Notes under the pieces: model-generated
The model's input: the letters and a program-made list of their open reading frames with translations, nothing else
What the model was told of the DNA's origin: nothing
Databases searched by the model: none
Part shown: positions 599 to 17,412 of the stretch, one piece after another
How positions within the stretch are numbered: the stretch's first letter is position 1
Layout: every line of letters begins with the position of its first letter
Source: Candidatus Cloacimonadota bacterium
GTDB taxonomy: Bacteria > Cloacimonadota > Cloacimonadia > Cloacimonadales > PWNZ01
DNA length: 34,202 bases
Direction of reading: 5' to 3'
Assembly: GCA_003564135.1 (NCBI GenBank)
Contig: PWNZ01000259.1
Coordinates: 1-34,202 of the forward strand
Position numbers and translations under genes: made by a program

Positions 599-3500
599 AT
601 GATTTCAGGTAAAGGGATAGCCCTTATAAGATTAGTCGGGATACATTTGTTATTGATGTCGGTATCATTTTTGAACGGTATTTTCAGTGAAGCGGTCAGG
701 TTAAATGTGGAAGCCCATCCTTATTATCAATACAGCGCGTACTTTAACGATATTAGCGGCTTTCGAGTTATTGACGGAGAGTTGCATGCCGTTTATTCGC
801 AATTTGTATATGATCAGGCAGTTTTTGATGAAATAGTTTATGTGAAAGCATCCCAGCCTTTTGATTTTGATACTGTACAAAGAACAGCTATTGATAGGTT
901 TGATTTCTTTCCATACTCACATCTTTTTTCATTCACCGAGCCGTCAATTGAGCTTATCAGCGAAGACATGATTGGAGTAGTTTATCCGCGCTATGTTCAA
1001 GAAGGAGACGGCAGAAAAGATCTAAACGTTGTTTTAATAAATCGAGAAGGTCAGATTGTTTCCCGAGAGTCTTTGTGTGAGCATGTTTACTCAAAAAGTT
1101 ATCTTATAACCGACGACTCTAAGACTAATCTCTTGTTTAGGAATGGATTGCCGTCAAATCCGACTGATTATTCTCCCTATCACAGGTTTTGGGGTACTGA
1201 ACGTCACTTTCCCCCGGATACACCTTACACCTGGGTTTTTTGGGAGGGAGACATAATCCACGGCCGGGTTCACCTCAATACGGATATTTATTTAAGAAGG
1301 AACAGTTGGCCCCGTTTTTACGGGTTGGTTACGATCAGCGGTATCGTCAGAGTATCCGGAGGAGGTTTTGCGTATCCTCGAGACCAAATCTTTTTAGGCG
1401 GGTTGATCGAAAATCACCCTATTATACCTTTCCCTGATAGAACGGAAGAGGTTAGGAGAGATGGTATCCTGCCTTTCGGAGAAGAAGCACGTGACGATAA
1501 GATTGCCTATGTAACGGTTGACGGTTCAATGTACCATTCTATGGTAGGAAGAGTAGTTATGGAAGATGTTAATGACCCTGAATTCGAATGGATAGAAGGT
1601 TATAATCAGTTTACAATCTACAATAGTTATCCACCCTTCGGAGAGATAGGTGAGGTTATAGGTGTCAACAGGATACCTAAGGTTGACACAATATGGACTG
1701 AAGGTCCCAACGGAGTTGTTGAGAACACATCTGTCTTTGTTCCGATGGTCCTGTGGATATCGGGTGATTTTGCGGGCAAACAAACTTGGGCGAGTTCACA
1801 CGATGTTTATTTAAAAGGCGATTTAACATACAGTAATACTATCCCCGGCCTAAGTCCGGACGGCTATGATGACCAGGGCAACCAAGTTCGTCCACCCAAT
1901 CCTACCGATTATTTGGGGATAATATCGGAAGAGTCAATTATTATTCAATATGGACATTGGCATCCGGTTGATTCGGTAAGAGTTCGTCCGAATACCGAAG
2001 ATATCTATATGTACGGTGTTTATGCAGCGCTTGGTTTTGGTGAAAACATTTGGAATTATGGAGCAATAAAGGCTGATTACTTATATCCCAAAGGTTCAAC
2101 ACCCGGTCAGGTGTGGAACGGTCAAAGGTACTCTAATATTGACCTTCATATGTTCAGTTACCCTACAACAGAGGCAAATCGTTGGCCTCCCGGTCTCGAT
2201 TATCCCTATTATAACCCCCTTTGGCCCGAACCGGGTGCTATCTACAATGTTCCGCGAATACCTTATGAAATGACACCTAACCCGCATAATGCCAACGAGA
2301 TTGTCAGGTTAAGGGGTGCTGTAAAACTTTTCGGTTCGCTGCTGCAAAGAAGAAGAGGAGTTAAAGGTATTCTTGCCGGTGGAGCAGTACCTAGAGATTG
2401 GAATATTGACGGTGAAATTAACCCTAATATACCACCCACTTACGGAACAGTTCCACCTGATAGAACAGGCTATGAAAGAATAATTAGAAATGACCGCAGA
2501 CTCGGAGAAACAGATTTTCCGCCCCATTTCCCTCAATGTGCCGGAGATGGTCAGGGTGATGGTTTTAGTTTTCATTATTGGACTTCTACCGATGGAGATG
2601 AATTCAGAGCTGTTTTATCGCGTGAACTGGAAAACTTCGACTCGTTACAAATGGCTTCTTGTGGTGACTCTGTATTAATAATAAGCGGTTCAACAATTTA
2701 TTTGTTTACGGAAAACAGTGAAGATTTTGAGGAGATGGATATAGGCCTCAATGAAGATGAAACCGTACAAAATATCGTTCTTTCAGGGCAGAATCTCTAT
2801 CTTTTGACAAACAGGTATTTAGAAGAGTTTGACGTTTATGGGTCTGTTCTCTACCATTACGACTTAGATGAAGAATCATTATCGGTTATAGATAGTAAAC
2901 AGCGGTCTAATCTAATGCAGACAATACACGGCTGCAACGGTCATATATTGTGGGCTGAAGCTGTGGATAATGAGACCATAGCGGTAAATCAATATGATCC
3001 GGCAGATAATCAGGTAACGGTTTATTATTGGGATCATAATATCTTGATTGATGAAGATTTTTGCCGTACTAACAGCAAGTTATCCTTACAATCCGAAGGT
3101 AATGCCCTTTTCCTGATCATGAATTATCGTAATGCAGCTTTGCGAGGGAGTGACACCGGAGGGGATATTTACATAGCTTCCGGTGCCTATCTATTTCCCG
3201 AACAAGGGGTAACCATAGAGTTCATAGAATCACCGCCATATCAGACTATCGAATGCACACTTAACCTTTTTATGCCTGAAGGTGATACTATCGAACCCGA
3301 AGACAGCCCTGTTGATAATATTGCGTCGCTCTATTGGACAATTAACAGTGACCATCCTGATGCGGGATCTTATAATATCAGCTTTAACATCCGAAATCGT
3401 CTTCAAGGAGTTAGAGATATTAAATCCCTGCACCTGTTAAAAAGAGATCATCCCGAATCATCCTGGCAAGATATGGGAACGCCGGATAAGGTAGTTGATT

Positions 3501-4282
3501 CTTTGCTGACTTGGACGGGTCTGCAAGGGTTTTCCGAATTTACTTTCGGCGGATACGGTTCGAATTTCTTTATAAAGCCTTATCCCGCCGCTGCAAGTGA
3601 TCCCTTCCCCGAACACAAACAAGTTGATATCCCTGTTAATTTGGAGAAACTGGCCTGGAGTTATATAGCTGATACTACCTATACAAATCCGGTAGGATTC
3701 AGGGTTTACCTGAGCACAACAGACGAATTTGCAGAAGATAGTTTTACCTGGGTAGATTACGTTGATGACCAAATATCGTTCTCCTGTTCGCAGATTTTAC
3801 CGCAGCAATTGGAAGGGGAAACAGAATATTACTGGAAGGTTGTACCTACTGTCAAGTCCCCCGGTCAGCGTAAGAGAGCAGCGCATAGCCGTGAGCCGGG
3901 CAGGACGCTGTTTCAGCAGTCTGAGCTTCGGAGTGATGCTCTCGATTGTCCCGTATGGACCTTCAAAACAGAAGAAGCATCGTCGGTTGTGATGCACCCA
4001 GCTTTTGAAACCGGGCTGTTATCAAACTATCCAAATCCGTTTAACCCCGAAACTATTGTCAGGTTCACCCTTAAAAACGAGGCATCTATACAGCTTAAGA
4101 TATACAACATCAGAGGCCGGGTAATAAGAGTTTTGCATGACTGCCTCATGCAAGAAGGCAAGCATGAAATTATGTGGGACGGCAGAGATGATAACGGCAA
4201 TCATGTCGGCTCAGGTGTCTATTTTTATCGATTGATTACCGCAGGTTATGATAGAACAAAGAAAATGCTGATAGTTAAATAA
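599..4282 (+). CDS. Large secreted/cell-surface protein with C-terminal YPNPFNP sorting domain
   Basis: A 1227-residue exported protein of unknown function. The start has a strong Shine-Dalgarno (AAAAGGAGG, 586-594) and is followed by a hydrophobic signal peptide in the first ~32 residues. The last 88 residues (about 1140-1227) begin LLSNYPNPFNPETIVRF and include WDGRDDNGNHVGSGVYFYRL. This is the FlgD-Ig-like / type IX-style sorting domain common in FCB bacteria, so secretion to the surface or medium is expected. Residues ~217-233 (GDIIHGRVHLNTDIYLR) and ~396-410 resemble passages recurrent in FCB exoproteins. A fibronectin-III-like region lies at about 1000-1090. The middle is rich in Tyr, Pro, Asp and Asn, and I recognise no catalytic motif in it. 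The gene stands alone, between dinB and the convergent dprA. Export is well supported; any activity is unknown. Confidence 0.88.
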   Translation: MISGKGIALIRLVGIHLLLMSVSFLNGIFSEAVRLNVEAHPYYQYSAYFNDISGFRVIDGELHAVYSQFVYDQAVFDEIVYVKASQPFDFDTVQRTAIDRFDFFPYSHLFSFTEPSIELISEDMIGVVYPRYVQEGDGRKDLNVVLINREGQIVSRESLCEHVYSKSYLITDDSKTNLLFRNGLPSNPTDYSPYHRFWGTERHFPPDTPYTWVFWEGDIIHGRVHLNTDIYLRRNSWPRFYGLVTISGIVRVSGGGFAYPRDQIFLGGLIENHPIIPFPDRTEEVRRDGILPFGEEARDDKIAYVTVDGSMYHSMVGRVVMEDVNDPEFEWIEGYNQFTIYNSYPPFGEIGEVIGVNRIPKVDTIWTEGPNGVVENTSVFVPMVLWISGDFAGKQTWASSHDVYLKGDLTYSNTIPGLSPDGYDDQGNQVRPPNPTDYLGIISEESIIIQYGHWHPVDSVRVRPNTEDIYMYGVYAALGFGENIWNYGAIKADYLYPKGSTPGQVWNGQRYSNIDLHMFSYPTTEANRWPPGLDYPYYNPLWPEPGAIYNVPRIPYEMTPNPHNANEIVRLRGAVKLFGSLLQRRRGVKGILAGGAVPRDWNIDGEINPNIPPTYGTVPPDRTGYERIIRNDRRLGETDFPPHFPQCAGDGQGDGFSFHYWTSTDGDEFRAVLSRELENFDSLQMASCGDSVLIISGSTIYLFTENSEDFEEMDIGLNEDETVQNIVLSGQNLYLLTNRYLEEFDVYGSVLYHYDLDEESLSVIDSKQRSNLMQTIHGCNGHILWAEAVDNETIAVNQYDPADNQVTVYYWDHNILIDEDFCRTNSKLSLQSEGNALFLIMNYRNAALRGSDTGGDIYIASGAYLFPEQGVTIEFIESPPYQTIECTLNLFMPEGDTIEPEDSPVDNIASLYWTINSDHPDAGSYNISFNIRNRLQGVRDIKSLHLLKRDHPESSWQDMGTPDKVVDSLLTWTGLQGFSEFTFGGYGSNFFIKPYPAAASDPFPEHKQVDIPVNLEKLAWSYIADTTYTNPVGFRVYLSTTDEFAEDSFTWVDYVDDQISFSCSQILPQQLEGETEYYWKVVPTVKSPGQRKRAAHSREPGRTLFQQSELRSDALDCPVWTFKTEEASSVVMHPAFETGLLSNYPNPFNPETIVRFTLKNEASIQLKIYNIRGRVIRVLHDCLMQEGKHEIMWDGRDDNGNHVGSGVYFYRLITAGYDRTKKMLIVK

Positions 4283-4568
4283 TTTTATATGATACGATAT
4301 TCATATTGAATTATGAGAATAGTTTTATAAGAACCCGTAAACACAAGAAGTAGGATATATGTAGTTTATAACAAACTATTGTAAAACCTGTATAAGATGT
4401 TATATCCCGGGATTCGGTTACCTGCGGTGAAGCTTCGCTTTGATAGAATTTAATATCATGTAACTTGAATTGGTAGCGGCCATTATAAATGCATTATCCG
4501 AATCTGTCTGCGAAATCTCCGCGAGCAATTATATTCGCGTGCCCATATTTAGAGAATGGTGGATAAAG

Positions 4569-6663
<2,095 letters not shown>

Positions 6664-6845
6664 TTATCTTCCTCCATTGAATTTAAGTTCTAGGTATTCA
6701 TTAGGCAAAAAATGTCAAACATTAATCTTCACAAACATCTAACGATCTTCACACATAGTGTTGAATTTTAAGATAAACCTCGACATTATAATTGACCTCT
6801 AATAATGTAGCCGCCGCTTGCCAATATCATATAACTATTCACTGA

Positions 6846-6861
6846 TCCATTACGGAATGGA
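6846..6861. repeat. Short inverted repeat (6-bp arms)
   Basis: TCCATT (6846-6851) and AATGGA (6856-6861) form a 6-bp stem around a 4-base loop. There is no T-run, so it is not a standard terminator. It is the first of several palindromes in this intergenic region. Confidence 0.5.
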
Positions 6862-6904
6862 ATGAACTCCACAACCTCTTTGTTAGCAGCAAACTACTGA
6901 CGAT

Positions 6905-6937
6905 CTGCCGGCAGGCTGAACTCTGTCGGTCGGACCG
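6905..6937. repeat. Two adjacent GC-rich palindromes
   Basis: CTGCCGGCAG (6905-6914) is a perfect 10-bp palindrome. CGGTCGGACCG (6927-6937) is an inverted repeat with 5-bp arms around a single central G. They lie just outside the left arm of the 6943-7077 element. Protein binding sites or part of a folded RNA are both possible. Confidence 0.5.
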
Positions 6938-6942
6938 CCGAT

Positions 6943-7077
6943 TTTAACCCATATAATGCAGTAGATTTCCGGAACGCAGGCAACACGACGTGCCGGCCGC
7001 ATAAATGCAACATTCCGGTACACTTATAAAAAACGATGCCGCAGTGTAGTATCTGTAACTGCATTATCTGGGTTAAA
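6943..7077. repeat. 135-bp element bounded by 20-bp inverted repeats
   Basis: The left arm TTTAACCCATATAATGCAGT (6943-6962) matches the reverse complement of 7058-7077 at 19 of 20 positions. Inside, CCGGAA and TTCCGG (7013-7018) can pair, and GGCA/TGCC can form a further small hairpin, so the whole element could fold into one long nested stem. No open reading frame of note and no clear target-site duplication (AT on the left, TA on the right). It could be a miniature inverted-repeat element, a REP-like sequence or a structured RNA. Confidence 0.65.
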
Positions 7078-7122
7078 TAGATGAAAAAGCTAAAGCATTT
7101 ACTGCCAATCCCCTGGAGGGTA

Positions 7123-7140
7123 TGTTACGCTACGGTAACA
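7123..7140. repeat. Inverted repeat TGTTAC/GTAACA
   Basis: TGTTAC (7123-7128) and GTAACA (7135-7140) form a 6-bp stem around a 6-base loop. The spacing is compatible with a dimeric DNA-binding protein operator as well as a hairpin. No T-run follows. Confidence 0.45.
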
Positions 7141-7243
7141 CAGGCTTGAGTTTTAGTGCATTATTCAGATTCAGCTGTTTCTCGATACTCAATTAAGGAA
7201 TTTTCGGTTGCTTTACCCTTTCAATTAATTTAGCAACATCCCT

Positions 7244-7303
7244 TATTATAGTGAGTAGTCTAGTAGTCGGCTCGAGCCAACTACTAGACTACTCACTATA
7301 ATA
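7244..7303. repeat. 60-bp near-perfect palindrome
   Basis: Centred between 7273 and 7274. Of 30 base pairs, 29 match; the only mismatch is C7268 against A7279. The core GGCTCGAGCC (7269-7278) is itself a perfect palindrome, so there is essentially no loop. The outer arms contain AGTAGT-CTAGTAGT-type internal repetition. Neither strand has a T-run directly after the stem. The nearest gene is tRNA-fMet, about 240 bases to the right. Confidence 0.85.
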
Positions 7304-7506
7304 CTAATGAGAAGGTAGTAGAAATTTTATCGGTTGAAAGTTTATTTTTCATTGTTTCAATATCACAAACTCAGACCGACAAACCGCCACATCCTTTTCC
7401 CCTATGGACACTCTTGAAGCACAAAGTGCAAAAAAAAATACCTAGCATCCAACCTGGAGAACGATAAGGATAAAGCCACAGAAAATGGGAGACCTCTATT
7501 TAATGG

Positions 7507-7533
7507 TTGACACAAACCCCTTTGTCTTATTAT
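7507..7533 (+). promoter_or_regulatory. Probable sigma-70-type promoter of tRNA-fMet
   Basis: A consensus -35 TTGACA (7507-7512) is followed after 15 bp by TATTAT (7528-7533). The spacer is slightly short. Initiation near 7540 would leave only a few leader bases before the mature tRNA 5' end at 7547, which suits a tRNA promoter. Confidence 0.55.
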
Positions 7534-7546
7534 TGAAAACACGTAA

Positions 7547-7623
<77 letters not shown>

Positions 7624-7840
7624 TTTTTTTATTTAGTCTAATTGTGAGGGCGAAACTAAATAGCAGTTCCAAAAAACAAGATGATCTTTGTCTGTCCACC
7701 TATATAAGCCAAGTTAGATCCACAACGACTTTAACTTATCCGAAATTGATAAAAAGGTTTACCCTGCTGATCAATTAGATAAAATTACTTGACTTATTTT
7801 AATCGGATTATGTCTGAGTGATCTTGAATAATAGTATATT

Positions 7841-7848
7841 AAAGGAGG
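7841..7848 (+). promoter_or_regulatory. Ribosome binding site that fixes the adk start
   Basis: AAAGGAGG lies 5 bases before TTG 7854. An in-frame GTG at 7818 would place this site inside the coding sequence, so the TTG is the better start. Confidence 0.75.
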
Positions 7849-7853
7849 TAGCT

Positions 7854-8480
7854 TTGCCGAACTTGGTGCTTTTAGGAATACAAGGTAGTGGTAAAGGGAC
7901 ACAAGCGAATTTGCTGAGTAAGCATTACGGTTTTGACCATCTTAACGTTGGTTCATTACTTAGGAAGGAGATGGAAAACCGGACAGCAATAGGTGATCAG
8001 ATTAGAGACTACATGCTAAGGGGAGATTTAGTTCCTGACGAGCATATCTTTTCAATCATTGAACCAATACTAACTGAGGATGCCGATAAGCTGGTTCTTG
8101 ATGGCTTCCCCAGAACAATTAATCAAGCAGAATACTTGGAAGGGAAAATCCCTGTAGAATACGCTATATATTTTGAGTTAGGTGATAAAGTGGCAAAGAA
8201 AAGGCTTAGTTCCCGTAGAGTATGTCAGAACTGCCAAGCTAACTATAACTTACTGTTGAATAGCTATCTCCGAGAAGAACGTTGTAAGAAATGCGGGCAA
8301 CTCTTGGAAAGAAGAGGTGACGATAATCAACTCGCCATAAACCGCAGAATAGACGCTTTTCATAAGCAGACTAAGCCAGTTATTAGCTTTTTTGAACAAA
8401 GAGATAGACTGCTACGAGTTGATGCCCAGAAAAAGCCGAAGATCATTCATGAAGAGTTGGTGTCCAAACTAAACCTATAA
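7854..8480 (+). CDS. adk: Adenylate kinase family protein, zinc-lid type
   Basis: Catalyses ATP + AMP = 2 ADP, if it is a true adenylate kinase. With the TTG start it has 208 residues, normal for the family. P-loop GIQGSGKGT (8-16), LDGFPRT (82-88) with the AMP-binding Arg and the following Gln, and RRGDD (153-157) in the LID. The LID carries four cysteines (C124, C127, C144, C147) as expected for a zinc-binding lid. The usual STGD motif that contacts AMP reads NVGSLLR (31-37): the Thr and Asp are replaced, while the Arg is kept. Substrate preference may therefore differ, or a second canonical adk may exist elsewhere. It follows tRNA-fMet and is 23 bases upstream of ktrB. Confidence 0.85.
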   Translation: MPNLVLLGIQGSGKGTQANLLSKHYGFDHLNVGSLLRKEMENRTAIGDQIRDYMLRGDLVPDEHIFSIIEPILTEDADKLVLDGFPRTINQAEYLEGKIPVEYAIYFELGDKVAKKRLSSRRVCQNCQANYNLLLNSYLREERCKKCGQLLERRGDDNQLAINRRIDAFHKQTKPVISFFEQRDRLLRVDAQKKPKIIHEELVSKLNL

Positions 8481-8503
8481 TAATGATCTGAGATAAGATA
8501 GTC

Positions 8504-10231
8504 ATGCAGTATAGAACCATTGATCGAGGAAGGTTCGATAAGAAAAACAGAGCTGATTCTGTTAGTTATTTATTAAGCAGTCTACTGTGGATTTTCGCAG
8601 CAGTAAACTTGTTTATATTGATCTTCTATAATTATGTTGCATCTTTACCGGATTTCGATTATATCAACCCTATCTATACTGCACTGACTGCACTTATTTT
8701 GCTAAGCCTGTATCTTAAAGCAATTTTTGCCGCCAGACTTTCATCTTTAGTTTTACGGAAGAGGATACCTGACTTATTGATCTTGATTTTGGCTGTAATT
8801 TTTTATCGTGAGCCGATAGTATTTCAACTTTGTTTATTAGGCCGGCAATCATATTTAGCAGCCATAATGTTTTCTAAGAGTCGGCAGAGAAGTAGAAAAA
8901 TAAGTAATCTATCCCAAAATGCAGCCATTTTCGTTCTACTTTCATTTTTTATTACAATTTTAGTGGGAACGATCCTGCTTTTATTACCCGTCTCAACCGC
9001 TGAGGGCAACGTCACTTCTTTAACGGGTGCATTATTCACCGCCACATCTGCAACCTGTGTCACGGGGTTAATAGTTTATGATACCGGTACGCATTTTTCT
9101 ACATTTGGCCAGGTAATAATCTTGTTGCTTTTTCAAATCGGGGGTCTGGGTATCATGACTATTTCGACCTCCTTTGCTATCCTGACCGGTCAGAAACTGT
9201 CATTCCGCGGTGAAAGTATAATGCAGGATGTGATAGAGGAGACCAATAAGTTTGACACCATGCGGTTGATTAAGAATATTGTTTTGGTTACTCTATTTTT
9301 TGAATTGTTTGGTGTCATATCACTTTATTCGGTTTTTTCCTCTGAATATACCACGTTTTCCAGAGCTTTGTTCTCTTCTGTTTTCCACTCAGTTTCTTCG
9401 TTTTGCAATGCCGGTTTCAGCCTTTATTCCGACAGCTTTACATCTTATAGAAGCAACTGGTTGTTGAACATTAGTGCCATGGTTCTAATAGTTTTTGGAG
9501 GTATAGGCTTTTCGGTGTTAGTTGATTTGAAAAGAAACATCATAGATCGTTTCAAGCCAAAGCGTTTTAGTCTTCACACGAAGATAGTATTACTAACAAC
9601 GCTTTTTCTTATTATCTTAGGTTTTGTTCTGTTTTTTATCACCGAGTATAATAACTCTATGGAGAACTTTGCTCTTCGTGAGCGGCTTTTAGGGTCAATG
9701 TTTCAATCGGTGACGACCCGTACCGCCGGCTTTAATACAGTTGATACGGGTCAATTCAGTAATTCTTCAGCTTTGGTTTCTCTATTTATGATGTTTGTCG
9801 GAGCATCTCCAGGATCTACCGGCGGTGGTATCAAGACGACAAGCTTGGCAATAATTATTTTATCTGTTATTGCAATACTATTTGGCAATAAAGATGTGAT
9901 TCTTTTCAAGAGAAAGATACGAGACAGTTTGATAAGGAGGGTGATGGCTCTGTTTGCTGTTTCGATTACTCTTCTTTTTTCCATTACTGTAATCTTGATG
10001 ATGGTTGAGCCATTTTCATTTATCCACATAGTATTTGAATCTTTTTCAGCTTTTGGAACTGTCGGTCTTTCAATGGGTATCACGCCTTATCTTTCAGATG
10101 GTGGCAGAGTTCTGGTGACATTTCTGATGTACTTTGGCAGAGTGGGGCCTTTGACGTTTATTTATGCTTTGTCAAGGACTAAACTTCAAAATGGGTTCGC
10201 CTATTCTGAAGAAAAAGTGTCGGTGGGATAA
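8504..10231 (+). CDS. ktrB: Potassium uptake protein, TrkH/KtrB family channel subunit
   Basis: Membrane subunit of a K+ uptake system. The four filter repeats of the SKT superfamily are visible: TSATCVTGL (181-189), SSFCNAGF (298-305), TTRTAGF (404-410) and SAFGTVGLS (515-523). The glycine-rich GASPGSTGGGIKTT (about 433-446) is also typical. At 575 residues it is about 130 longer than a classic KtrB. The extra is an N-terminal block with about three hydrophobic segments (~25-110) before the first pore repeat. The start lies 23 bases after adk and no strong Shine-Dalgarno is seen. The partner RCK subunit follows at 10411. Confidence 0.92.
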   Translation: MQYRTIDRGRFDKKNRADSVSYLLSSLLWIFAAVNLFILIFYNYVASLPDFDYINPIYTALTALILLSLYLKAIFAARLSSLVLRKRIPDLLILILAVIFYREPIVFQLCLLGRQSYLAAIMFSKSRQRSRKISNLSQNAAIFVLLSFFITILVGTILLLLPVSTAEGNVTSLTGALFTATSATCVTGLIVYDTGTHFSTFGQVIILLLFQIGGLGIMTISTSFAILTGQKLSFRGESIMQDVIEETNKFDTMRLIKNIVLVTLFFELFGVISLYSVFSSEYTTFSRALFSSVFHSVSSFCNAGFSLYSDSFTSYRSNWLLNISAMVLIVFGGIGFSVLVDLKRNIIDRFKPKRFSLHTKIVLLTTLFLIILGFVLFFITEYNNSMENFALRERLLGSMFQSVTTRTAGFNTVDTGQFSNSSALVSLFMMFVGASPGSTGGGIKTTSLAIIILSVIAILFGNKDVILFKRKIRDSLIRRVMALFAVSITLLFSITVILMMVEPFSFIHIVFESFSAFGTVGLSMGITPYLSDGGRVLVTFLMYFGRVGPLTFIYALSRTKLQNGFAYSEEKVSVG

Positions 10232-10410
10232 AGGATTTTGAGACAAGATTCTTCTCCCTGAAAGGGGAGTGATATATTGTGGATTGGTTCAGCTTGAGTC
10301 GTTGCTCGCTAAGAGCTAGTTTGTCTATTTCTTGGTTGACAGCAAATGAGTTTTTGGTTAACCAGATTTTAAGTGAAAAGGAGCTAATGGATTGTTAAGG
10401 AGAGACGATA

Positions 10411-11121
10411 ATGCGTAAATATGCAGTAATAGGACTGGGAAAATTTGGCGTTACGGTTGCTAAGACCTTATATGAAAATGGAGCAGAGGTTATAGCAATC
10501 GACAAAGACGAGAAAAAGATTGAAGAGGTCAAAGGCTTGGTTTCTGCAACCGTTAGTATGGACTCAACCGATGAGCAATCACTTAAGAACATTGGAATAG
10601 TTGACATGGATGTAGTTATATTGGCGATAGGTGAAGTGGAGACAAGTGTTTTAACCAGTGCTATTTTAAAGAAATTGGGCATGAAAAACATACATGCCAA
10701 GGTTGACAGTGATCTTCATTCTAAGATATTGGAGATCATAGGAGTGCGGAAGATTCTTTTCCCGGAAAAGCAGGTTGGTGAACAATTAGCCTATACATTG
10801 ATTTCTCCGAATGTGCTTAGGTATGAAAAGATGACTTCGGGGCACTGCTTAGCAGAGATTACCGTACCCCGAGATTATGTTGGCAAAAGCCTACAAGAAC
10901 TAAACCTACCGAACGAGAAAAAAGTGCATGTGATAGCTGTTAAATATCGAGACGAAAGCGTTACAGAAGAAGGTGATAATATTGTAGAAGAAAAGATTAA
11001 TAATCTTCCCGGCGCCAATACAATTCTTAATGAGGATGATGTGCTTGTTCTGATAGGAGCTGTGGGTAATATAAACTCCTTAGTTAAAGATGTTTCACCT
11101 GATGGGAGTGTTTATTTATGA
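10411..11121 (+). CDS. ktrA: Potassium uptake regulatory subunit, RCK/TrkA (KtrA) family
   Basis: A 236-residue cytosolic gating subunit. The N-terminal RCK_N Rossmann fold has GLGKFG (8-13) for nucleotide binding and an acidic strand end at AIDKDE (about 29-34). The C-terminal ~95 residues are an RCK_C domain, the region that binds c-di-AMP or other ligands in relatives. The start has AAGGAGAG just upstream. A 179-base gap after ktrB contains a weak hairpin (CTCCC...GGGAG, ~10255-10270) and a possible TTGACA at ~10336, so ktrA may have its own promoter. Its stop overlaps the start of the HAMP-PAS gene by 4 bases (ATGA). Confidence 0.93.
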   Translation: MRKYAVIGLGKFGVTVAKTLYENGAEVIAIDKDEKKIEEVKGLVSATVSMDSTDEQSLKNIGIVDMDVVILAIGEVETSVLTSAILKKLGMKNIHAKVDSDLHSKILEIIGVRKILFPEKQVGEQLAYTLISPNVLRYEKMTSGHCLAEITVPRDYVGKSLQELNLPNEKKVHVIAVKYRDESVTEEGDNIVEEKINNLPGANTILNEDDVLVLIGAVGNINSLVKDVSPDGSVYL

Positions 11122-11927
11122 AGATTTTTTTAAAGAAAAGAGCCTCTATCCTGCTAGGATTTCTGCTTTTCTTATCAGCTGTTCAGGTAGCTTTAGTATT
11201 CATCAGCCTTGATCCGGAGCGAGGTTTTTTTGAGGTTCGTAGCGAAGTATTGACTGTTATGGCTGTCTTTTTTCTAGTGCAGTTTTCCATAACTGTTCTG
11301 CTGATTGCACAACTGCCCTATTACTTGCGAAAGTACCTGCGAACTATCAACGAAATAATGTCCGAAGTTTCTTCCGGCAATTACAATGTCGATATAGATC
11401 TCGAGGAATACGGTAAGCTGCGAGATAAAGAAATGGTCGAGATAGTGTCATCATTCAATAAGATGATGGACATTATTCTCAGGTTCGATAATTTAAAAAA
11501 GCAAAAGATCCAAGAACAGCGAGCGCGACTGATAGCTTTACTGAATCTTACTGAGAATGGTTTCATTATTTTGAACAAAAAAGGAGATGTCGTTTACGTA
11601 AACTATCTGACCGCTCTTTACTTTCCGACGATACAGGAGAGCATAAATATGATTGACACTCATTTTAGGTTTGATATAGATAAAAACATCCAAAGTTACA
11701 TAACAAAGGCCATCAAAGAAAAAAACAAACTGATGCCCAAGAACTTCTATATGCAAACCTTAGGCAGGCACATCAATTTAAAAAGCGAAATTGTCAGGGA
11801 CTCAAACGGGGATTTCGACGGGATGGTTATAGGAATCTATAATTTAGATTCAAAAACTGATAGGGTTAAGAAAGACAACCCTGAACAAGATCAACAATCC
11901 CCATCGAAGAATGAATCTTACCTATAA
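11118..11927 (+). CDS. Membrane HAMP-PAS protein without an output domain
   Basis: A 269-residue sensor-like protein. Two membrane segments (about 8-30 and 45-67) flank a very short external loop. A HAMP-like linker follows (~70-120, RYLRTINEIMSEVSSGNYNV... VSSFNKMMD), then a coiled-coil with QEQRARLIALLNLTENGFIILNKKGDVVYVN, the typical entry into a PAS domain (~135-250). The sequence ends in a charged tail with no histidine kinase, GGDEF, phosphatase or methyl-accepting region. It overlaps ktrA by 4 bases and rluD by 17, so co-translation with the K+ system is likely. It may be a third subunit or regulator of K+ uptake that reports on membrane or cytosolic state; that role is inference. Confidence 0.75.
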   Translation: MKIFLKKRASILLGFLLFLSAVQVALVFISLDPERGFFEVRSEVLTVMAVFFLVQFSITVLLIAQLPYYLRKYLRTINEIMSEVSSGNYNVDIDLEEYGKLRDKEMVEIVSSFNKMMDIILRFDNLKKQKIQEQRARLIALLNLTENGFIILNKKGDVVYVNYLTALYFPTIQESINMIDTHFRFDIDKNIQSYITKAIKEKNKLMPKNFYMQTLGRHINLKSEIVRDSNGDFDGMVIGIYNLDSKTDRVKKDNPEQDQQSPSKNESYL

Positions 11928-12873
11928 TTGCTCAAAACCGGTTAGAATAGATAAATTTTTGGCGAGCCAAGATATATCTGAGCTGTACTCGAGAAGCATG
12001 ATTGAAAAGCTCATAAATTCAGGCTTTGTGTTAGTTAATGGCAAAATAATAAAGAAAAACTATTTACTGCAAGATAACGATAGTATAGATATAGATTTAC
12101 CGGAACCCGAACCGTCGAGCATGACAGCTGAATATCTCCCCTTAGACATTATTTTTGAAGATCAGTATATGGCGATAATTAATAAGCCGGCCGGAGTAAT
12201 GGTACACCCCTCTCCGGGCAATTATTCGGGTACTATTGCAAATGCAGCCTTGTACCGGTATGGGGAAAACCTGGCCAATCATGAAGACGTGCTTAGGCCG
12301 GGCATAGTCCACAGACTGGATAAGGATACGTCCGGATTGCTAATAATCGCCAAAGACGACAAAACACTATCGTACCTGAATAAGATATTTAGTGAGCGGC
12401 AGGTCAGTAAGACATATAAAGCCGTTGTTGCAGGTGTCCCCAATCAGAAAGCAGGTATTATTGATCAGCCGATATGTCGAAGCAATAAGGACAGAACAAA
12501 AATGAGAGTTTCTCCCGACGGGAAAAAGGCGGTCACCCGTTATCAAGTGGAACAGGTTTATTCTTATTTTTCTTTATTGGAGGTTGTTATTGAGACCGGA
12601 AGAACTCATCAAATAAGAGTTCATTTAGATTCTATCAACTGCCCTGTCTTAGCTGATAACTCTTATGGAACTAAAAAGCTTAAAAGTTTGCTGCCGTTAA
12701 ATATGCAGAAAAAAGTTAATCACTATCTTGGCCGTCGTTTAAAAAGACAAGCACTGCATGCGTACAGATTGGGATTTAAACATCCGGTAACGGGCGATAT
12801 CGTCGACGTAGCTGCTCCTTTGCCTGATGACATGGTTGAATTGATTAAGTGGCTAGAAAGGTATTTTTTGTAG
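11911..12873 (+). CDS. rluD: RluA/RluD-family rRNA pseudouridine synthase
   Basis: A 320-residue enzyme that isomerises uridine to pseudouridine in large-subunit rRNA. The N-terminal S4 RNA-binding domain spans ~10-60 (RIDKFLASQ... VLVNGKIIKKNYLLQDNDSI). The catalytic domain has HRLDKDTSG, with nucleophile D137, NKPAGVMVHP (~91-100) and GRTHQIRVH. Length and the S4 domain match RluD (23S helix 69) better than RluA or RluC, but the exact target cannot be read from sequence. Its start lies inside the upstream HAMP-PAS gene, and its 3' end faces the convergent PorV-like gene across 24 bases. Confidence 0.9.
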   Translation: MNLTYNCSKPVRIDKFLASQDISELYSRSMIEKLINSGFVLVNGKIIKKNYLLQDNDSIDIDLPEPEPSSMTAEYLPLDIIFEDQYMAIINKPAGVMVHPSPGNYSGTIANAALYRYGENLANHEDVLRPGIVHRLDKDTSGLLIIAKDDKTLSYLNKIFSERQVSKTYKAVVAGVPNQKAGIIDQPICRSNKDRTKMRVSPDGKKAVTRYQVEQVYSYFSLLEVVIETGRTHQIRVHLDSINCPVLADNSYGTKKLKSLLPLNMQKKVNHYLGRRLKRQALHAYRLGFKHPVTGDIVDVAAPLPDDMVELIKWLERYFL

Positions 12874-12897
12874 TTCCTGGCTATTGATGCTTGATCT

Positions 12898-13890
12898 TTA
12901 GAACAAGTAGCTTAAACTTACTTGGTTAATAATCCCCAAATCTCCATAAGAAGAAACAGCATAATCAAATACATAGTCGCCTCTATGTAGTCCGATACCG
13001 GTTGAGAAACCCGACAACAAATCAAAGTCACCGCCAGCTTGCCAGTCAGATCCTTGGGCATTGTATCCAGCCCTAAGATCAAGTGTCGGATGAATTGAAT
13101 ATTCTATACCGGCGCCCACGCCGAAGTCATTATCAAAAGGTTTCCGTATATCCAGCAGCCCTGTTAAATTTTCATGAGGGAAATACCTAAACCCGATTGC
13201 AACTCCGGAAGGGATGCTTTCTTCGTAGTTATCGGATGTATGGTATGTTAGCTGAGTGCCAATGTTTTGCAACGTTACACCGATTATTAATTGATCATTA
13301 GTTGTTTGGTGCATTAAAGATATGTCGGCTGCAACGGCAGTAGCTGAGTAGTCATCTAACTGTTCCCGAATAAGTTTTCCTGTAAGCCCGATATTCAGCA
13401 TTTCGTGGATATATCTTCCACCGGAAATGCCGAATATAATGTTGTTCGCCCCGAAAGTCCCTCTAGTTCCCATATATTCACCATACTCATCTACTTCAGT
13501 ACGTGTTATACTACCGCTACCTAAATATTGAGTGAAGAGAGCTATTTGGGTATGGTCTTCAATGGGGAATGAGAAAACAGCAGATCCACCGTGAAATCCC
13601 TCAAAGTAGTTGATGTAGGTAGTAGAGAATGAACGTTTTGAAAGCTGCACTAACCCTGCCGGATTGAAGAATACGGCATTAACATCATCCGAGAGCCCGG
13701 TGTAAGAGTTGGCCAAAGCTGCTGCTCGAGCTGAGTATGGTACTCTCAGGAAATTAAATCCTGTGGTTCCTTTATTTTCATTACCGAATAACGAGTAATT
13801 AATTGTAACTATCATCACAAAAGCCATGATAGTCAATAACTTGCTTTTTATAGCTGTTCGGCCAATAAGTATTAATCTATGTCTATACAT
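12898..13890 (-). CDS. PorV/PorQ-like outer-membrane beta-barrel protein
   Basis: A 330-residue exported protein. An N-terminal hydrophobic segment (~18-36) acts as signal peptide. It is followed by GFNFLRVPYSARAAALANSYTGLSDDVNAVFFNPAGL, in which ARAAALANSYTGLSDD and FFNPAGL are the hallmarks of the PorV/PorQ (UPF0164, FadL-like) family. Alternating hydrophobic strands continue to a C-terminal aromatic residue (SLSYLF). PorV-type proteins are shuttle or scaffold components of type IX secretion, which agrees with the sorting domain on the exoprotein at 599. I prefer ATG 13890, which has AGGAG 8 bases upstream, over the in-frame TTG at 13896. The gene is last in the mtnA operon and overlaps the EIIA gene by 8 bases. 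Confidence 0.85.
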   Translation of the reverse strand: MYRHRLILIGRTAIKSKLLTIMAFVMIVTINYSLFGNENKGTTGFNFLRVPYSARAAALANSYTGLSDDVNAVFFNPAGLVQLSKRSFSTTYINYFEGFHGGSAVFSFPIEDHTQIALFTQYLGSGSITRTEVDEYGEYMGTRGTFGANNIIFGISGGRYIHEMLNIGLTGKLIREQLDDYSATAVAADISLMHQTTNDQLIIGVTLQNIGTQLTYHTSDNYEESIPSGVAIGFRYFPHENLTGLLDIRKPFDNDFGVGAGIEYSIHPTLDLRAGYNAQGSDWQAGGDFDLLSGFSTGIGLHRGDYVFDYAVSSYGDLGIINQVSLSYLF

Positions 13891-14350
13891 ATTCAAGTCT
13901 CCTAAACTTCTTATAGATTTCGTTTTTATTGCTTGCCCTGAGAATACTAATTCTATTATCGGTATCTCTTAAAAATTCCGATACTTTAGCAAGTAGATGC
14001 ATGTAACTATTACCTTCATCTTCGGGCACTGCGAAGAGAATAATCAATCTAACTCCCTTGTCGTCAAGAGAATTAAAATCAATCTCCTTGTCAAGAAGAT
14101 AAATAACAGCCTTAAAAGCTTTAATATGAGAGTCCCGAACATGTGGCACGGCAATATGATTACCTATTCCGGTGGAAAGGTCATTTTCCCTTTTCATCAG
14201 TCTAATGAAAACCTGTTCGATATTTTGCAGATAACCTCTATCCGAAAGGACGTTGACCATGTTTTTTAAACATGTAATCTTGTCCTTACCGGCAGGTGGA
14301 GAGGCGATTTCAGGATGAACAAAGATAAGGTCTTTATCGAAGGTAGCCAT
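13883..14350 (-). CDS. Stand-alone PTS EIIA type-2 domain protein
   Basis: A 155-residue single-domain protein of the fructose/mannitol/nitrogen EIIA class. The phosphorylation site is H70 in GIGNHIAVPHVRD (61-73), preceded by the usual RENDLSTG. VRLIILFAVPEDEGNSYMHLLAKVSEFLRD (about 100-130) is the second family signature. There is no EIIB or EIIC domain and no such gene nearby, so a regulatory role like PtsN (EIIA-Ntr) is more likely than sugar uptake. Its ATG shares one base with the stop of the upstream amidohydrolase, indicating tight coupling. A second EIIA domain occurs as a fusion at 22342-24207. Confidence 0.88.
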   Translation of the reverse strand: MATFDKDLIFVHPEIASPPAGKDKITCLKNMVNVLSDRGYLQNIEQVFIRLMKRENDLSTGIGNHIAVPHVRDSHIKAFKAVIYLLDKEIDFNSLDDKGVRLIILFAVPEDEGNSYMHLLAKVSEFLRDTDNRISILRASNKNEIYKKFRRLEYV

Positions 14351-15669
14351 TATTCTAACATTTTTTTTTGGTAAAACTTTGCTCTATCTTTAATTTCGTT
14401 TTCGTCTAAGGTGAGCAGTTGACGGTTAAGCATTATCGGTTTCCCATTGATTAACACATCTTTTATTGCGTTAGAATTGAGGTTGTAGACTAGATGTGAG
14501 TAGGGGCTGTATATTGGTTGTGCTTCAATCTCATCGGTATCGATAGTTATGATATCGGCTTGTTTGCCAACTTCTATCGAGCCGAGCAATTCTTTTTTCC
14601 CTAGGGCTTTAGCGGCATTAATTGTTGGGAACTTAATCACCTGTTCAGCGGGTAAAAATGTCGGGTCATGATTGAGAGCTTTATGAACTTTTGAAGTTGT
14701 ACTTATTTCTTCGATAATCGATAAATTGTTGTTACTGGCTACTCCATCGGTAGCTTGAGTTAGGTTGATTTTTTTTTCAAAACATTTTTTTAGAGGCATG
14801 AAGCCAGATGCTAACTTGAGATTACTCTTCGTATTAATAGAGATATTGACCTTCTTTTCAGCAAGAATATCTATATCTTCATCAGTTAGCCAGACACTAT
14901 GTGCGGCAATACATTTATCGCTCCAGAAATCCAAGTCATTCAGCAAAGCAGTAGGGCTTTTGCCATGTTGAGCGATACTGTCGTCAAACTCTTTTTTTGT
15001 TTCTGCTAAGTGGGTGTGGAGTAACAGTCCATATTTTTTCGACATATCCAAGACCTTTTGCAATGTCTCGATACTGCAAGTATAAATCGAGTGAGGAGAT
15101 AGGGATACATCAATAGTTGGTGAGTCTTTATATTGTTCTATAAGCGATAAGCTATATTTCAATATGCTGTCTCGGCCATCATATCCAGCAACGGGAAAAT
15201 CTAAAACACCTTCGCCAATAACTGCTCTGACACCGGCTTTTATGGCCGCTTTTGCCGTTTCTGAACCTCTGAAATACATGTCATTGAACATAACAGTTCC
15301 ATTTTTTATAAGTTCGGCAATACCGTGTAGAGATGAGTGATAGACAAACTCGTCATTGATCATAGCTGTCTCTTTAGGCCAGATGTGGTTATTGAGCCAT
15401 GTATAGAGTGGCAGGTCGTCGGCAAGGCCCTTAAAATAAGCCATTGCTATATGAGTATGAGTATTTATAAACCCTGGCATAACAATCTTGTTTTTTGCGT
15501 TTATGGTGTGGGTGGGTTGGTATTTTTGCTTCTCTTGGGGGTCGTTGCTAATCTCAACGACTTTGCCTTTGTTTATCGCAATCCATCCATTTTCCAGTCT
15601 TTCCATTTCTGAATTAATGGTTAGGACGTCTCCGTTTTCAATCAAGATATCGATATTATCTAGTTTCAT
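14350..15669 (-). CDS. mtaD: 5-methylthioadenosine/S-adenosylhomocysteine deaminase (amidohydrolase)
   Basis: A 439-residue metal-dependent deaminase of the TrzA/AtzA/MtaD branch. Expected metal ligands are H71 and H73 (INTHTHIAM), H220 in LLLHTHLAE (with E223) and D308 in ATDGVASNNNL, a motif characteristic of MTA/SAH deaminases. WLNNHIWPKE (91-100) is another family signature. It would convert methylthioadenosine to methylthioinosine, or SAH to S-inosylhomocysteine. Placement behind mtnA and the aldolase supports MTA. A phosphorylase to release methylthioribose-1-phosphate is not in this window. It has GGAG 5 bases before the ATG and overlaps the aldolase by 14 bases. Other amidohydrolase substrates remain possible. 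Confidence 0.88.
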   Translation of the reverse strand: MKLDNIDILIENGDVLTINSEMERLENGWIAINKGKVVEISNDPQEKQKYQPTHTINAKNKIVMPGFINTHTHIAMAYFKGLADDLPLYTWLNNHIWPKETAMINDEFVYHSSLHGIAELIKNGTVMFNDMYFRGSETAKAAIKAGVRAVIGEGVLDFPVAGYDGRDSILKYSLSLIEQYKDSPTIDVSLSPHSIYTCSIETLQKVLDMSKKYGLLLHTHLAETKKEFDDSIAQHGKSPTALLNDLDFWSDKCIAAHSVWLTDEDIDILAEKKVNISINTKSNLKLASGFMPLKKCFEKKINLTQATDGVASNNNLSIIEEISTTSKVHKALNHDPTFLPAEQVIKFPTINAAKALGKKELLGSIEVGKQADIITIDTDEIEAQPIYSPYSHLVYNLNSNAIKDVLINGKPIMLNRQLLTLDENEIKDRAKFYQKKMLE

Positions 15670-16276
15670 TTTTACTCCTAATTTTATTATAGAACCTCAG
15701 GATGTTTTTGCCTGCATCGTCAAGAGAAAAACCTCCAAGAATTATTCCTTCAGGGTGACCGCCCATTATTATCGGTACTGAAGGGTGATAGCCTTCACTG
15801 CTTAGAAGGTGCATAATACTTTCTGCTAATTCAGAAGATCCATACAGGGCTGAGCAACTTGTTGTCGGCACCCGGTTTAGGTTTTGTGCCCATGTTTTTT
15901 TGTCGTGGATATGAATGACAGCTGTAATCTTTGAGTTACTAAGATAAAACGCTGCATGTGATAATGATTCGGAAGATGCCCGAGTTTTTCCATAGCATTT
16001 GAGATAGTTTTTGTGTATGTTGTATTCGCTGACTAATGATAGGTTTTCTTTCGTTAAGTCTGCTATATGTCCGGTTTGGGATCCGGTTATCACAAAAGAG
16101 ATGTCATCTACTCGGTAACTAATATTACCGAATCCTATACCGTTCGGTAAAGCACCGATAAGGTTCATTGTTATTAACCGGGATCTCCAACGATTAAGAG
16201 CTTCTAAGTCTTGCTCCGAAACAATCTCAATTTCTTGTTCTATCCAATCACAAGTAAACTTAATTATATTTTCCAT
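15656..16276 (-). CDS. Class II aldolase/adducin family protein, probable methylthioribulose-phosphate lyase
   Basis: A 206-residue zinc-dependent enzyme. GNIS (50-53), TGSQTG (64-69), catalytic-type E103 with H107 in SSESLSHAAF, and zinc ligands H122/H124 (VIHIHD) and H164 (GGHPEG) align with the L-fuculose-phosphate aldolase pattern (Glu73, His92, His94, His155). MtnB dehydratases share this fold, so the sequence alone does not settle the reaction. Directly after mtnA and before the MTA deaminase, the substrate is probably 5-methylthioribulose-1-phosphate. No mtnW, mtnX, mtnC or mtnD lies nearby. That favours the aldolase of the DHAP shunt (DHAP plus methylthioacetaldehyde) over the Met salvage dehydratase. 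Start and the mtnA stop share one base. Confidence 0.85.
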   Translation of the reverse strand: MENIIKFTCDWIEQEIEIVSEQDLEALNRWRSRLITMNLIGALPNGIGFGNISYRVDDISFVITGSQTGHIADLTKENLSLVSEYNIHKNYLKCYGKTRASSESLSHAAFYLSNSKITAVIHIHDKKTWAQNLNRVPTTSCSALYGSSELAESIMHLLSSEGYHPSVPIIMGGHPEGIILGGFSLDDAGKNILRFYNKIRSKNETR

Positions 16277-17412
16277 TATTTCTCATTGTCATATTTTTGA
16301 GTGATTTTTTCCGGGAATAGTTTCAGAATGCTCTGTTTAGAGGCTTTACACAATCCTCTTTCAGTTATAAGTCCGGTAACAAGCCGAGAAGGTGTGATGT
16401 CAAAGCTCGGATTAGAACACACTACTTTATCGCAAGAAATCAAAACGCTTCTGATTTGATTATCAATTAGCCCTTCGACGTGGGAAACTTCATTGCTGCT
16501 TCTTTCTTCTATTTTTATTTTTTCTGGTTTAAGATCGGAATCGTTGTCAAAAGTGGTACCCGGAAGGGCTACCCAGAAAGGGATGTTGTTATCTTTAGCA
16601 GCTAAGGCTTTAAGGTAGGTCCCTATTTTATTAGCCACATTTCCGGTGATTGTTGTACGGTCGCTGCCAACTAAAACTAAGTCCACCATCCCTTTTTGCA
16701 TTAAGTATCCACCTGCATTGTCTGTGATTAATGTATTATTAATGCCGTTTTCTGTAAGTTCCCAAACTGTCAAACGTGATCCTTGATTACGTGGACGTGT
16801 TTCGTCAACCCAGACATGGATTTTTATGCCTTCTTTATTAGCCAAATAGATTGGAGATGTTGCTGTTCCATAATCTACACATGCTAACCATCCGGCATTG
16901 CAATGAGTTAGAATATTAACCGGCCCTGCTTTAGTTTCACTGATAGTGCGGATGATGTCCAGTCCGTGTTTACCTATCATCCGACAAGCTTCTATGTCCT
17001 CTTCAATTAACTTTTTAGCTAAATGAAGAGCTGTTTTTTCTTTTTTCTCAAGTGTATCCACTTTACTGATTTTTTGCATTATATAGTTGATAAGGTTTTC
17101 AGTATTAACGGCAGTAGGTCTAGCAGAAATGATTTTTTTAGCTTGCTCCTTAATTACTGAAGCCTCTTGGCTTTTTATTGCCTCAGAGCATGCAAAAACA
17201 ACACCAAAGGCGGCTGTTATACCAATAAGTGGCGCTCCTCTTAGGTGCATTTCGGATATAGCCTGGATAACATCTTCTGATGAATACAGTTTTTCGAACT
17301 TGACTTGAAAAGGTAGACATCTTTGGTCGAGGATAATGACGTGCTGACCATAACCGTCTTGGCTGCGAGGCACATACTTAATTGATTGGTAATGGTTACC
17401 ACTAATAAGCAT
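16276..17412 (-). CDS. mtnA: Methylthioribose-1-phosphate isomerase
   Basis: A 378-residue isomerase converting 5-methylthioribose-1-phosphate to 5-methylthioribulose-1-phosphate. Family signatures: RGAPLIGITAAFG (58-70), LTHCNAG (168-174) with catalytic C171, WVDETRPRNQGSRLT (201-215) and GSDR (249-252) with catalytic D251. The relatives eIF2B and ribose-1,5-bisphosphate isomerase share the fold, but these motifs are those of MtnA. ATG 17412 has AAGGAG 8 bases upstream and is preferred to the adjacent TTG. It is the first gene of the five-gene minus-strand operon and is divergent from the radical SAM gene across about 140 bases. Confidence 0.95.
   Translation of the reverse strand: MLISGNHYQSIKYVPRSQDGYGQHVIILDQRCLPFQVKFEKLYSSEDVIQAISEMHLRGAPLIGITAAFGVVFACSEAIKSQEASVIKEQAKKIISARPTAVNTENLINYIMQKISKVDTLEKKEKTALHLAKKLIEEDIEACRMIGKHGLDIIRTISETKAGPVNILTHCNAGWLACVDYGTATSPIYLANKEGIKIHVWVDETRPRNQGSRLTVWELTENGINNTLITDNAGGYLMQKGMVDLVLVGSDRTTITGNVANKIGTYLKALAAKDNNIPFWVALPGTTFDNDSDLKPEKIKIEERSSNEVSHVEGLIDNQIRSVLISCDKVVCSNPSFDITPSRLVTGLITERGLCKASKQSILKLFPEKITQKYDNEK

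Follow-up and report, generated by a model that had tools for sequence, protein, structure and literature searches.

A HAMP-PAS membrane protein encoded behind ktrA as a candidate sensor subunit of KtrAB in Cloacimonadota

The textbook KtrAB potassium uptake system consists of KtrA and KtrB only. Further third parties of Trk/Ktr systems are c-di-AMP acting on RCK_C, SapD/TrkE and KtrE; these and EIIANtr are likewise extra factors on the RCK or channel subunit, and to our knowledge none of them is a HAMP-PAS protein of the membrane whose gene follows ktrA. KtrAB is under ATP/ADP control through KtrA, as described in passages of two reports (PMC11078986, PMC4714889); a passage of PMC9239096, citing Lee et al. 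2007, has E. coli TrkA acted on by EIIANtr, and PMC12453120 reports the binding of c-di-AMP by TrkA. A preliminary description of the locus reported here knew of no dedicated PAS sensor subunit for a Ktr or Trk system. A search by title of the open-licence literature found nothing relevant on a PAS or HAMP protein working with KtrA or TrkA.

The window, by which we mean the whole stretch of 34,202 nucleotides that was analysed, carries a cluster of five genes, all on the + strand. The first in window order is adk, for adenylate kinase (7818-8480; ADK 1.5e-36), followed by ktrB, for the K+ channel subunit (8504-10231), ktrA, for the RCK regulatory subunit of 236 aa (10411-11121), a gene for a HAMP-PAS protein of 269 aa with two membrane helices (11118-11927), and finally rluD, for a pseudouridine synthase (11911-12873; PseudoU_synth_2 4e-35), which belongs to the same conserved cluster and overlaps the HAMP-PAS gene by 17 bases from position 11911. 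The ATGA start/stop overlap described between ktrA and the HAMP-PAS gene is present at 11118-11121; the accompanying phrase "fused by overlap" stands for this locus as an overlap, but as nothing beyond that, and the ATGA overlap occurs in 12 of 86 distinct ktrA-PAS pairs. An Rfam scan of the window at gathering cut-offs returned one tRNA (7547-7620) and no riboswitch. Promoter-like sites numbered 16 against 17.6 in shuffles, which is no excess, and terminator-like sites 8 against 4.2. An EIIA gene (PTS_EIIA_2, 4.7e-29) lies on the opposite strand at 13883-14350, about 1 kb past rluD; since EIIANtr regulates TrkA in E. coli, it may by analogy provide a second input to K+ uptake close to the cluster.

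Both RCK lobes are present in KtrA by Pfam (TrkA_N 2e-24, TrkA_C 5.5e-11), and the protein matches the solved Bacillus KtrA and KtrC at 4e-51 and 6e-39, the KtrC match running over residues 2-226. It is thus a single-RCK protein with N and C lobes, the GxGxxG motif and an equivalent of E125: its E119 occupies the aligned position of E125 in KtrA 5but and does not vary across an alignment of 30 proteins, while K11 stands at the position of R16 in known KtrA, a column that holds K or R among the 30. KtrB, with 575 aa, matches TrkH at 6e-59, exceeds the TIGR00933 cut-off (332.6 bits against 331.15) and matches the solved KtrB at 8e-91 over residues 144-571. Because that match starts at residue 144, about 143 N-terminal residues (1-143; 8504-8932), containing several hydrophobic stretches, are extra and absent from the solved protein. 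This extension matched no Pfam family in the four N-termini scanned, and a VSD-like reading made by eye was dropped, being without Pfam support in the same four. The KtrB frame of an Aerophobetes locus (L136) is likewise long, at 545 aa. Both window proteins match over their cores the solved proteins of the Bacillus subtilis KtrAB system, a member of the Trk/Ktr/HKT family, and the locus differs from that system in the KtrB extension and in a third gene, for a membrane HAMP-PAS protein, behind ktrA. Judged by these alignments, the KtrAB part of the locus is a KtrAB potassium uptake system, for which an octameric KtrA ring and ATP/ADP control would be expected.

The structure of the 269-residue protein was predicted with a mean pLDDT of 83.3 and a pTM of 0.54. 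The model comprises TM helix 1 (residues 5-30; 11130-11207), whose membrane placement is deduced from sequence, TM helix 2 running into HAMP helix 1 (37-85; 11226-11372), HAMP helix 2 continuing into a linker helix (104-144; 11427-11549) and a PAS domain (145-241; 11550-11840) whose modelled fold spans 148-241. Only about six residues between TM1 and TM2 lie outside, leaving no room for a sensing domain beyond the membrane, in contrast to a distant relative at locus L130, recorded as Nitrospinota, which has a periplasmic one of the 4HB_MCP type. By Pfam the HAMP match is weak (0.064, below the cut-off), and no HAMP was tallied among 30 members at 0.01; the predicted structure has a helix-connector-helix between TM2 and the linker helix. 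Pfam finds no PAS match in the window protein itself and finds one at 0.01 or better in 8 of 30 aligned HAMP-PAS proteins; the modelled domain nevertheless has the PAS fold, superposing on the ThkA PAS domain with Z 11.8 and rmsd 2.4 over 91 residues. This match comes from the second of two structure aligners, whose first-ranked matches are PAS domains of kinases. The top PDB matches of the model by Foldseek are WalK (9a5d) and a VicK-like protein (4i5s), the latter matched by sequence as well (7e-6), and NCBIfam identifies the region as the HAMP-PAS part of the PnpS (23 of 30 members), VicK (22), AtoS (16) and NblS (15) kinases.

What is present resembles the membrane-HAMP-PAS input half of a WalK/VicK-type sensor histidine kinase. 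The order of TM, HAMP, helical linker and PAS is that of WalK, VicK and PnpS, but the window protein stops after PAS, with neither a DHp nor an ATPase domain. No kinase domain was matched by Pfam in 30 HAMP-PAS proteins, and the lack of a known output domain noted in the preliminary description extends to the family, as only 2-28 residues follow PAS in 85 aligned proteins. On account of its layout, its likeness to kinases and this short tail, the protein looks like the input half of such a kinase without the output half.

Conservation within the family is concentrated in the linker. The weighted conservation of linker helix residues 119-140 is 0.60, whereas the membrane helices, HAMP and PAS score 0.43-0.46, and the columns of F123, D124, K127, K130, I131, E133 and R137 have frequencies of 0.93-0.98. 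These residues make up the motif FDxxKxxKIxExxxR (residues 123-137; 11484-11528; FDNLKKQKIQEQRAR in the window), which occurs exactly in 73 of 85 proteins and in relaxed form in 81 of 86; the L130 relative has a close variant, FDQLKVQKIAEEQRK. As the best-conserved segment, the surface of the linker helix is taken as the likely output contact. The protein as a whole is fast-evolving: among relatives, identity to the window protein is 25-53%, compared with 44-80% for KtrA, a faster rate than is usual for a core subunit in tight association. The reading that we favour, at a probability of roughly 0.6, makes the protein a sensor subunit dedicated to KtrAB, acting through a contact that we infer.

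A different role for a protein so placed is that of an assembly or anchoring factor, holding the KtrA ring at KtrB or stabilising the complex during translation, with PAS as a non-sensing protein-binding module. Tight spacing behind ktrA would suit it, the gap being at most 15 bases in 80 of 86 distinct pairs (the tally holds L130 as 397, where the frame coordinates give 25 bases, and a spacing of 494 in G013 belongs to the second piece of a split PAS gene, the first piece giving 21). So would the character of the PAS domain, which is about as variable as the membrane part (conservation 0.45 and 0.44) and whose best His, Cys, Trp, Asp and Glu columns are conserved at 0.61-0.71 at most. A heme, flavin or zinc cofactor was considered and set aside for lack of a conserved His/Cys set. 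Yet HAMP domains and helical linkers are converters of signals in known proteins, the L130 relative carries the 4HB_MCP sensor domain, and KtrAB is encoded elsewhere with no such neighbour, as in genome G106; an assembly role is unlikely, and the sensor reading is retained in what follows.

The neighbourhood might have been unique to this genome, a prospect raised in the preliminary description, and it is not. A sample of 124 Cloacimonadota genomes, the window's own included, was searched with a profile of the protein at E <= 1e-10, fragments being counted, and 104 gave a HAMP-PAS match, among them 64 of 70 genomes of good quality. The pairing proposed between the two genes goes beyond chance: in 98 of the 104 the HAMP-PAS gene immediately follows ktrA in the same orientation, and a contig end cuts the site in the remaining six. 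The gene begins at most 115 bases from the contig start in G046, G059, G086 and G103, with ktrA right at the edge of a different contig in the first two; 140 bases are left on the contig in G080, and ktrA is truncated in G031 (L157). It is nearly always single copy, with two matches found in two genomes, G013 (a gene in two pieces) and the window's own, where a fragment lies on contig C47. This second PAS-rluD copy (L003, G000:C47:1-3020), which is cut, is 56% identical to the window protein and 70% to that of G001 (L004), and probably derives from a relative whose contig strayed into the bin.

Six genomes gave a KtrA match and no PAS match. In G014, G037, G044 and G115 the contig stops inside ktrA or at most about 180 bases past it, and the sole KtrA of G016 and of G106 is a divergent one (E 3e-47 and 3e-54). 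No HAMP-PAS gene was found in the 1.3 kb behind the divergent ktrA of G106, nor any match genome-wide in G016, whose contig stops about 260 bases behind ktrA; G103 has, besides its PAS fragment, a separate divergent KtrAB with no HAMP-PAS gene. A ktrA of the PAS-associated type without the gene was seen nowhere in the phylum sample except at contig ends. Neither protein was matched in 14 genomes, three of them at least 90% complete (G067, G079 and G082); G067 and G079 also gave no TrkH match, and G082 has a TrkH gene with about 540 bases between it and the end of a contig.

Conservation of the KtrB-KtrA-HAMP-PAS order, a check put forward in the preliminary description, was found across the sampled phylum and again in a single distant lineage. 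Of 39 genomes searched within the window's own taxonomic order, the window's genome among them, 34 gave a match, and KtrA before and RluD behind the HAMP-PAS gene were found at all 29 relatives' loci read; adk lies upstream of ktrB or ktrA in many of the relatives. Another order contributes 15 matching genomes, and ktrB-ktrA-PAS-rluD is kept in 14 of 14 loci fetched, where adk gave no match, 13 of them having at least 811 bases before ktrB. Among named loci, drawn from the best 80 of 362 KtrA relatives, the gene is present in 66 of 68 of this cluster type (L063-L129 and L131), and in the two exceptions, L117 and L127, the sequence ends just behind or in ktrA; many named loci are probably of the same species as genomes of the phylum sample, and the two counts are not independent. 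The ktrA-PAS pair also persists where ktrB has gone from the locus, in 3 of 28 judgeable loci (L006, L008 and L022; L014 is cut), the ktrB-type genes lying elsewhere in these three genomes. Read by eye, the displaced ktrB-type genes at L187 and L188 have STTG, not CVTG, in the first filter segment, and the one at L188 adjoins genes for a predicted ion transporter and an EIIA-CBS-like protein. The third gene of KtrAB is real and phylum-wide.

Outside the phylum, the best 80 of 362 KtrA relatives supplied 12 further loci, and among these the sole one with ktrA followed by a gene for a kinase-less HAMP-PAS protein is L130, recorded as Nitrospinota bacterium J063. It has ktrB at 1860-3251, ktrA at 3265-3945 and a protein of 417 residues at 3971-5224, in which Pfam finds 4HB_MCP, HAMP (4.9e-11) and PAS_4 (2.9e-7) and no kinase; no match to rluD or adk was found in this locus. 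The other 11 (L132-L142) have no such gene, ten of them with at least 1.4 kb behind ktrA and L140 with only 137 bases. Run genome-wide at 1e-5, the profile of the HAMP-PAS protein matched 4 of 13 of these genomes, one of them that of L072; the match in the L130 genome (2.7e-18) covers positions 36-245, that is HAMP, linker and PAS, and two other weak matches cover PAS alone. In the small group around J063, one of five genomes matched, J063 itself. At 1e-12 no match was returned from 297 genomes of the phylum of a Deltaproteobacteria record or from 84 of that of a Poribacteria record, empty answers of this kind being weak evidence. A Cloacimonadota-type cluster recorded under Armatimonadetes bacterium bin.262 (L072; profile match 4.5e-98) is probably mislabelled.

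Since adk and rluD are conserved neighbours as well, slow change of gene order explains part of this pattern, and gene order alone does not decide the partner. The protein might accordingly be a passenger, an unrelated membrane PAS protein kept behind ktrA by slow gene-order change in the phylum, just as adk and rluD have stayed in the cluster although no link between them and K+ uptake is known. Such a passenger would have had to stay behind ktrA in the order whose 14 loci gave no adk match, to be retained with KtrAB in L130 in the absence of both adk and rluD, and to be missing from behind a PAS-type KtrA only at contig ends, and we regard this as quite improbable. A split sensor kinase, in which the input half would heterodimerise with a full-length histidine kinase encoded elsewhere and the position behind ktrA would serve co-regulation only, is suggested by the best structural and sequence relatives (WalK, VicK, PnpS, NblS and AtoS) but is very improbable, as no kinase or regulator gene was found among the open frames of window positions 6000-17000 (seven of them, all five cluster genes included, scanned with Pfam) or, by eye, in the L130 locus, the position behind ktrA recurs in L130, and a search of the 124 genomes at E <= 1e-10 found no full-length kinase with this input half, every match falling in an open frame of at most 294 aa.

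If the protein is a sensor subunit, its partner may be sought by comparing rates of evolution. Over 81 loci, the partial correlation of PAS protein distances was 0.66 with KtrA and 0.27 with RluD, and KtrA was preferred over RluD in 300 of 300 subsamples of the distance matrices. When KtrB was added (34 loci), the partial values were 0.17 for KtrA, 0.27 for KtrB and 0.23 for RluD and were not separated, KtrA being best in 50 of 300 subsamples; in 21 loci of the window's own order, it was best in 183 of 300. Mutual information between KtrA and PAS columns (85 pairs, Neff 54, low power) gave no signal: 89 of 100 within-cluster shuffles reached the observed maximum, and the number of column pairs above the 20th score was about the same for shuffled data (mean 19.8) as for the observed. 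A model of an artificial fused chain, in which Gly replaced the stop that separates ktrA from the PAS gene, was built from an alignment of 21 in-frame loci with 64 KtrA and 64 PAS rows added, L130 being left out here and in the covariation analysis. It was confident within each of the two parts (mean pLDDT 92.4) and had a pTM of 0.70, and all 50 Foldseek matches listed for it are RCK proteins.

The preliminary interpretation is thus upheld in part, by the conserved gene order, and an exit of the signal through the RCK subunit stays a proposal: distances favour KtrA over RluD, but KtrA and KtrB are inseparable and residue covariation is null. L130, which lacks rluD and adk, points to KtrAB and not RluD as the partner. 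RluD was considered as a functional partner and is less likely because L130 lacks it and the rates fit it less well. Four points favour KtrAB, namely L130, the loci without ktrB, the tight spacing, and distances that follow KtrA over RluD.

These observations lead us to propose a model for the sensor subunit in which the HAMP-PAS protein would form a dimer next to KtrB in the membrane. An altered state of the membrane, or else a ligand or the ionic conditions at the cytosolic PAS domain, would shift the HAMP and linker helices, allowing the linker surface FDxxKxxKIxExxxR, the PAS domain or both to touch the KtrA ring or the contact between KtrA and KtrB; that touch would then bias the channel opening controlled by ATP and ADP. 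A precedent for regulation of this kind is found in the KCNH (EAG/ERG/ELK) K+ channels, where, in a passage of PMC7515569, the PAS domain regulates by touching a cytosolic domain of the ligand-binding type (PAS-CNBHD). There PAS is part of the eukaryotic channel polypeptide, and the likeness is one of working and not of descent; the PAS fold matches include the N-terminal domain of hERG (1byw; Z 8.4, rmsd 3.1, 90 residues) along with many other PAS domains. Tentatively, and at somewhat less than even odds, the KtrAB of Cloacimonadota may be a three-component channel gated through linker-helix contact with a kinase-derived HAMP-PAS membrane subunit.

Apart from ATP/ADP and c-di-AMP, little is known of the inputs that inform Trk/Ktr channels of outside conditions or of the energy state, and a sensor behind ktrA throughout a phylum offers a concrete and testable partner. 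If the model is true, an input module from two-component signalling would have been turned from phosphotransfer to the direct control of an ion channel, in principle a bacterial equivalent of the PAS domain (eag) in K+ channels of animals. The protein would, moreover, clearly exemplify a sensor-kinase input half that has outlived its kinase, with an ion channel as its output.
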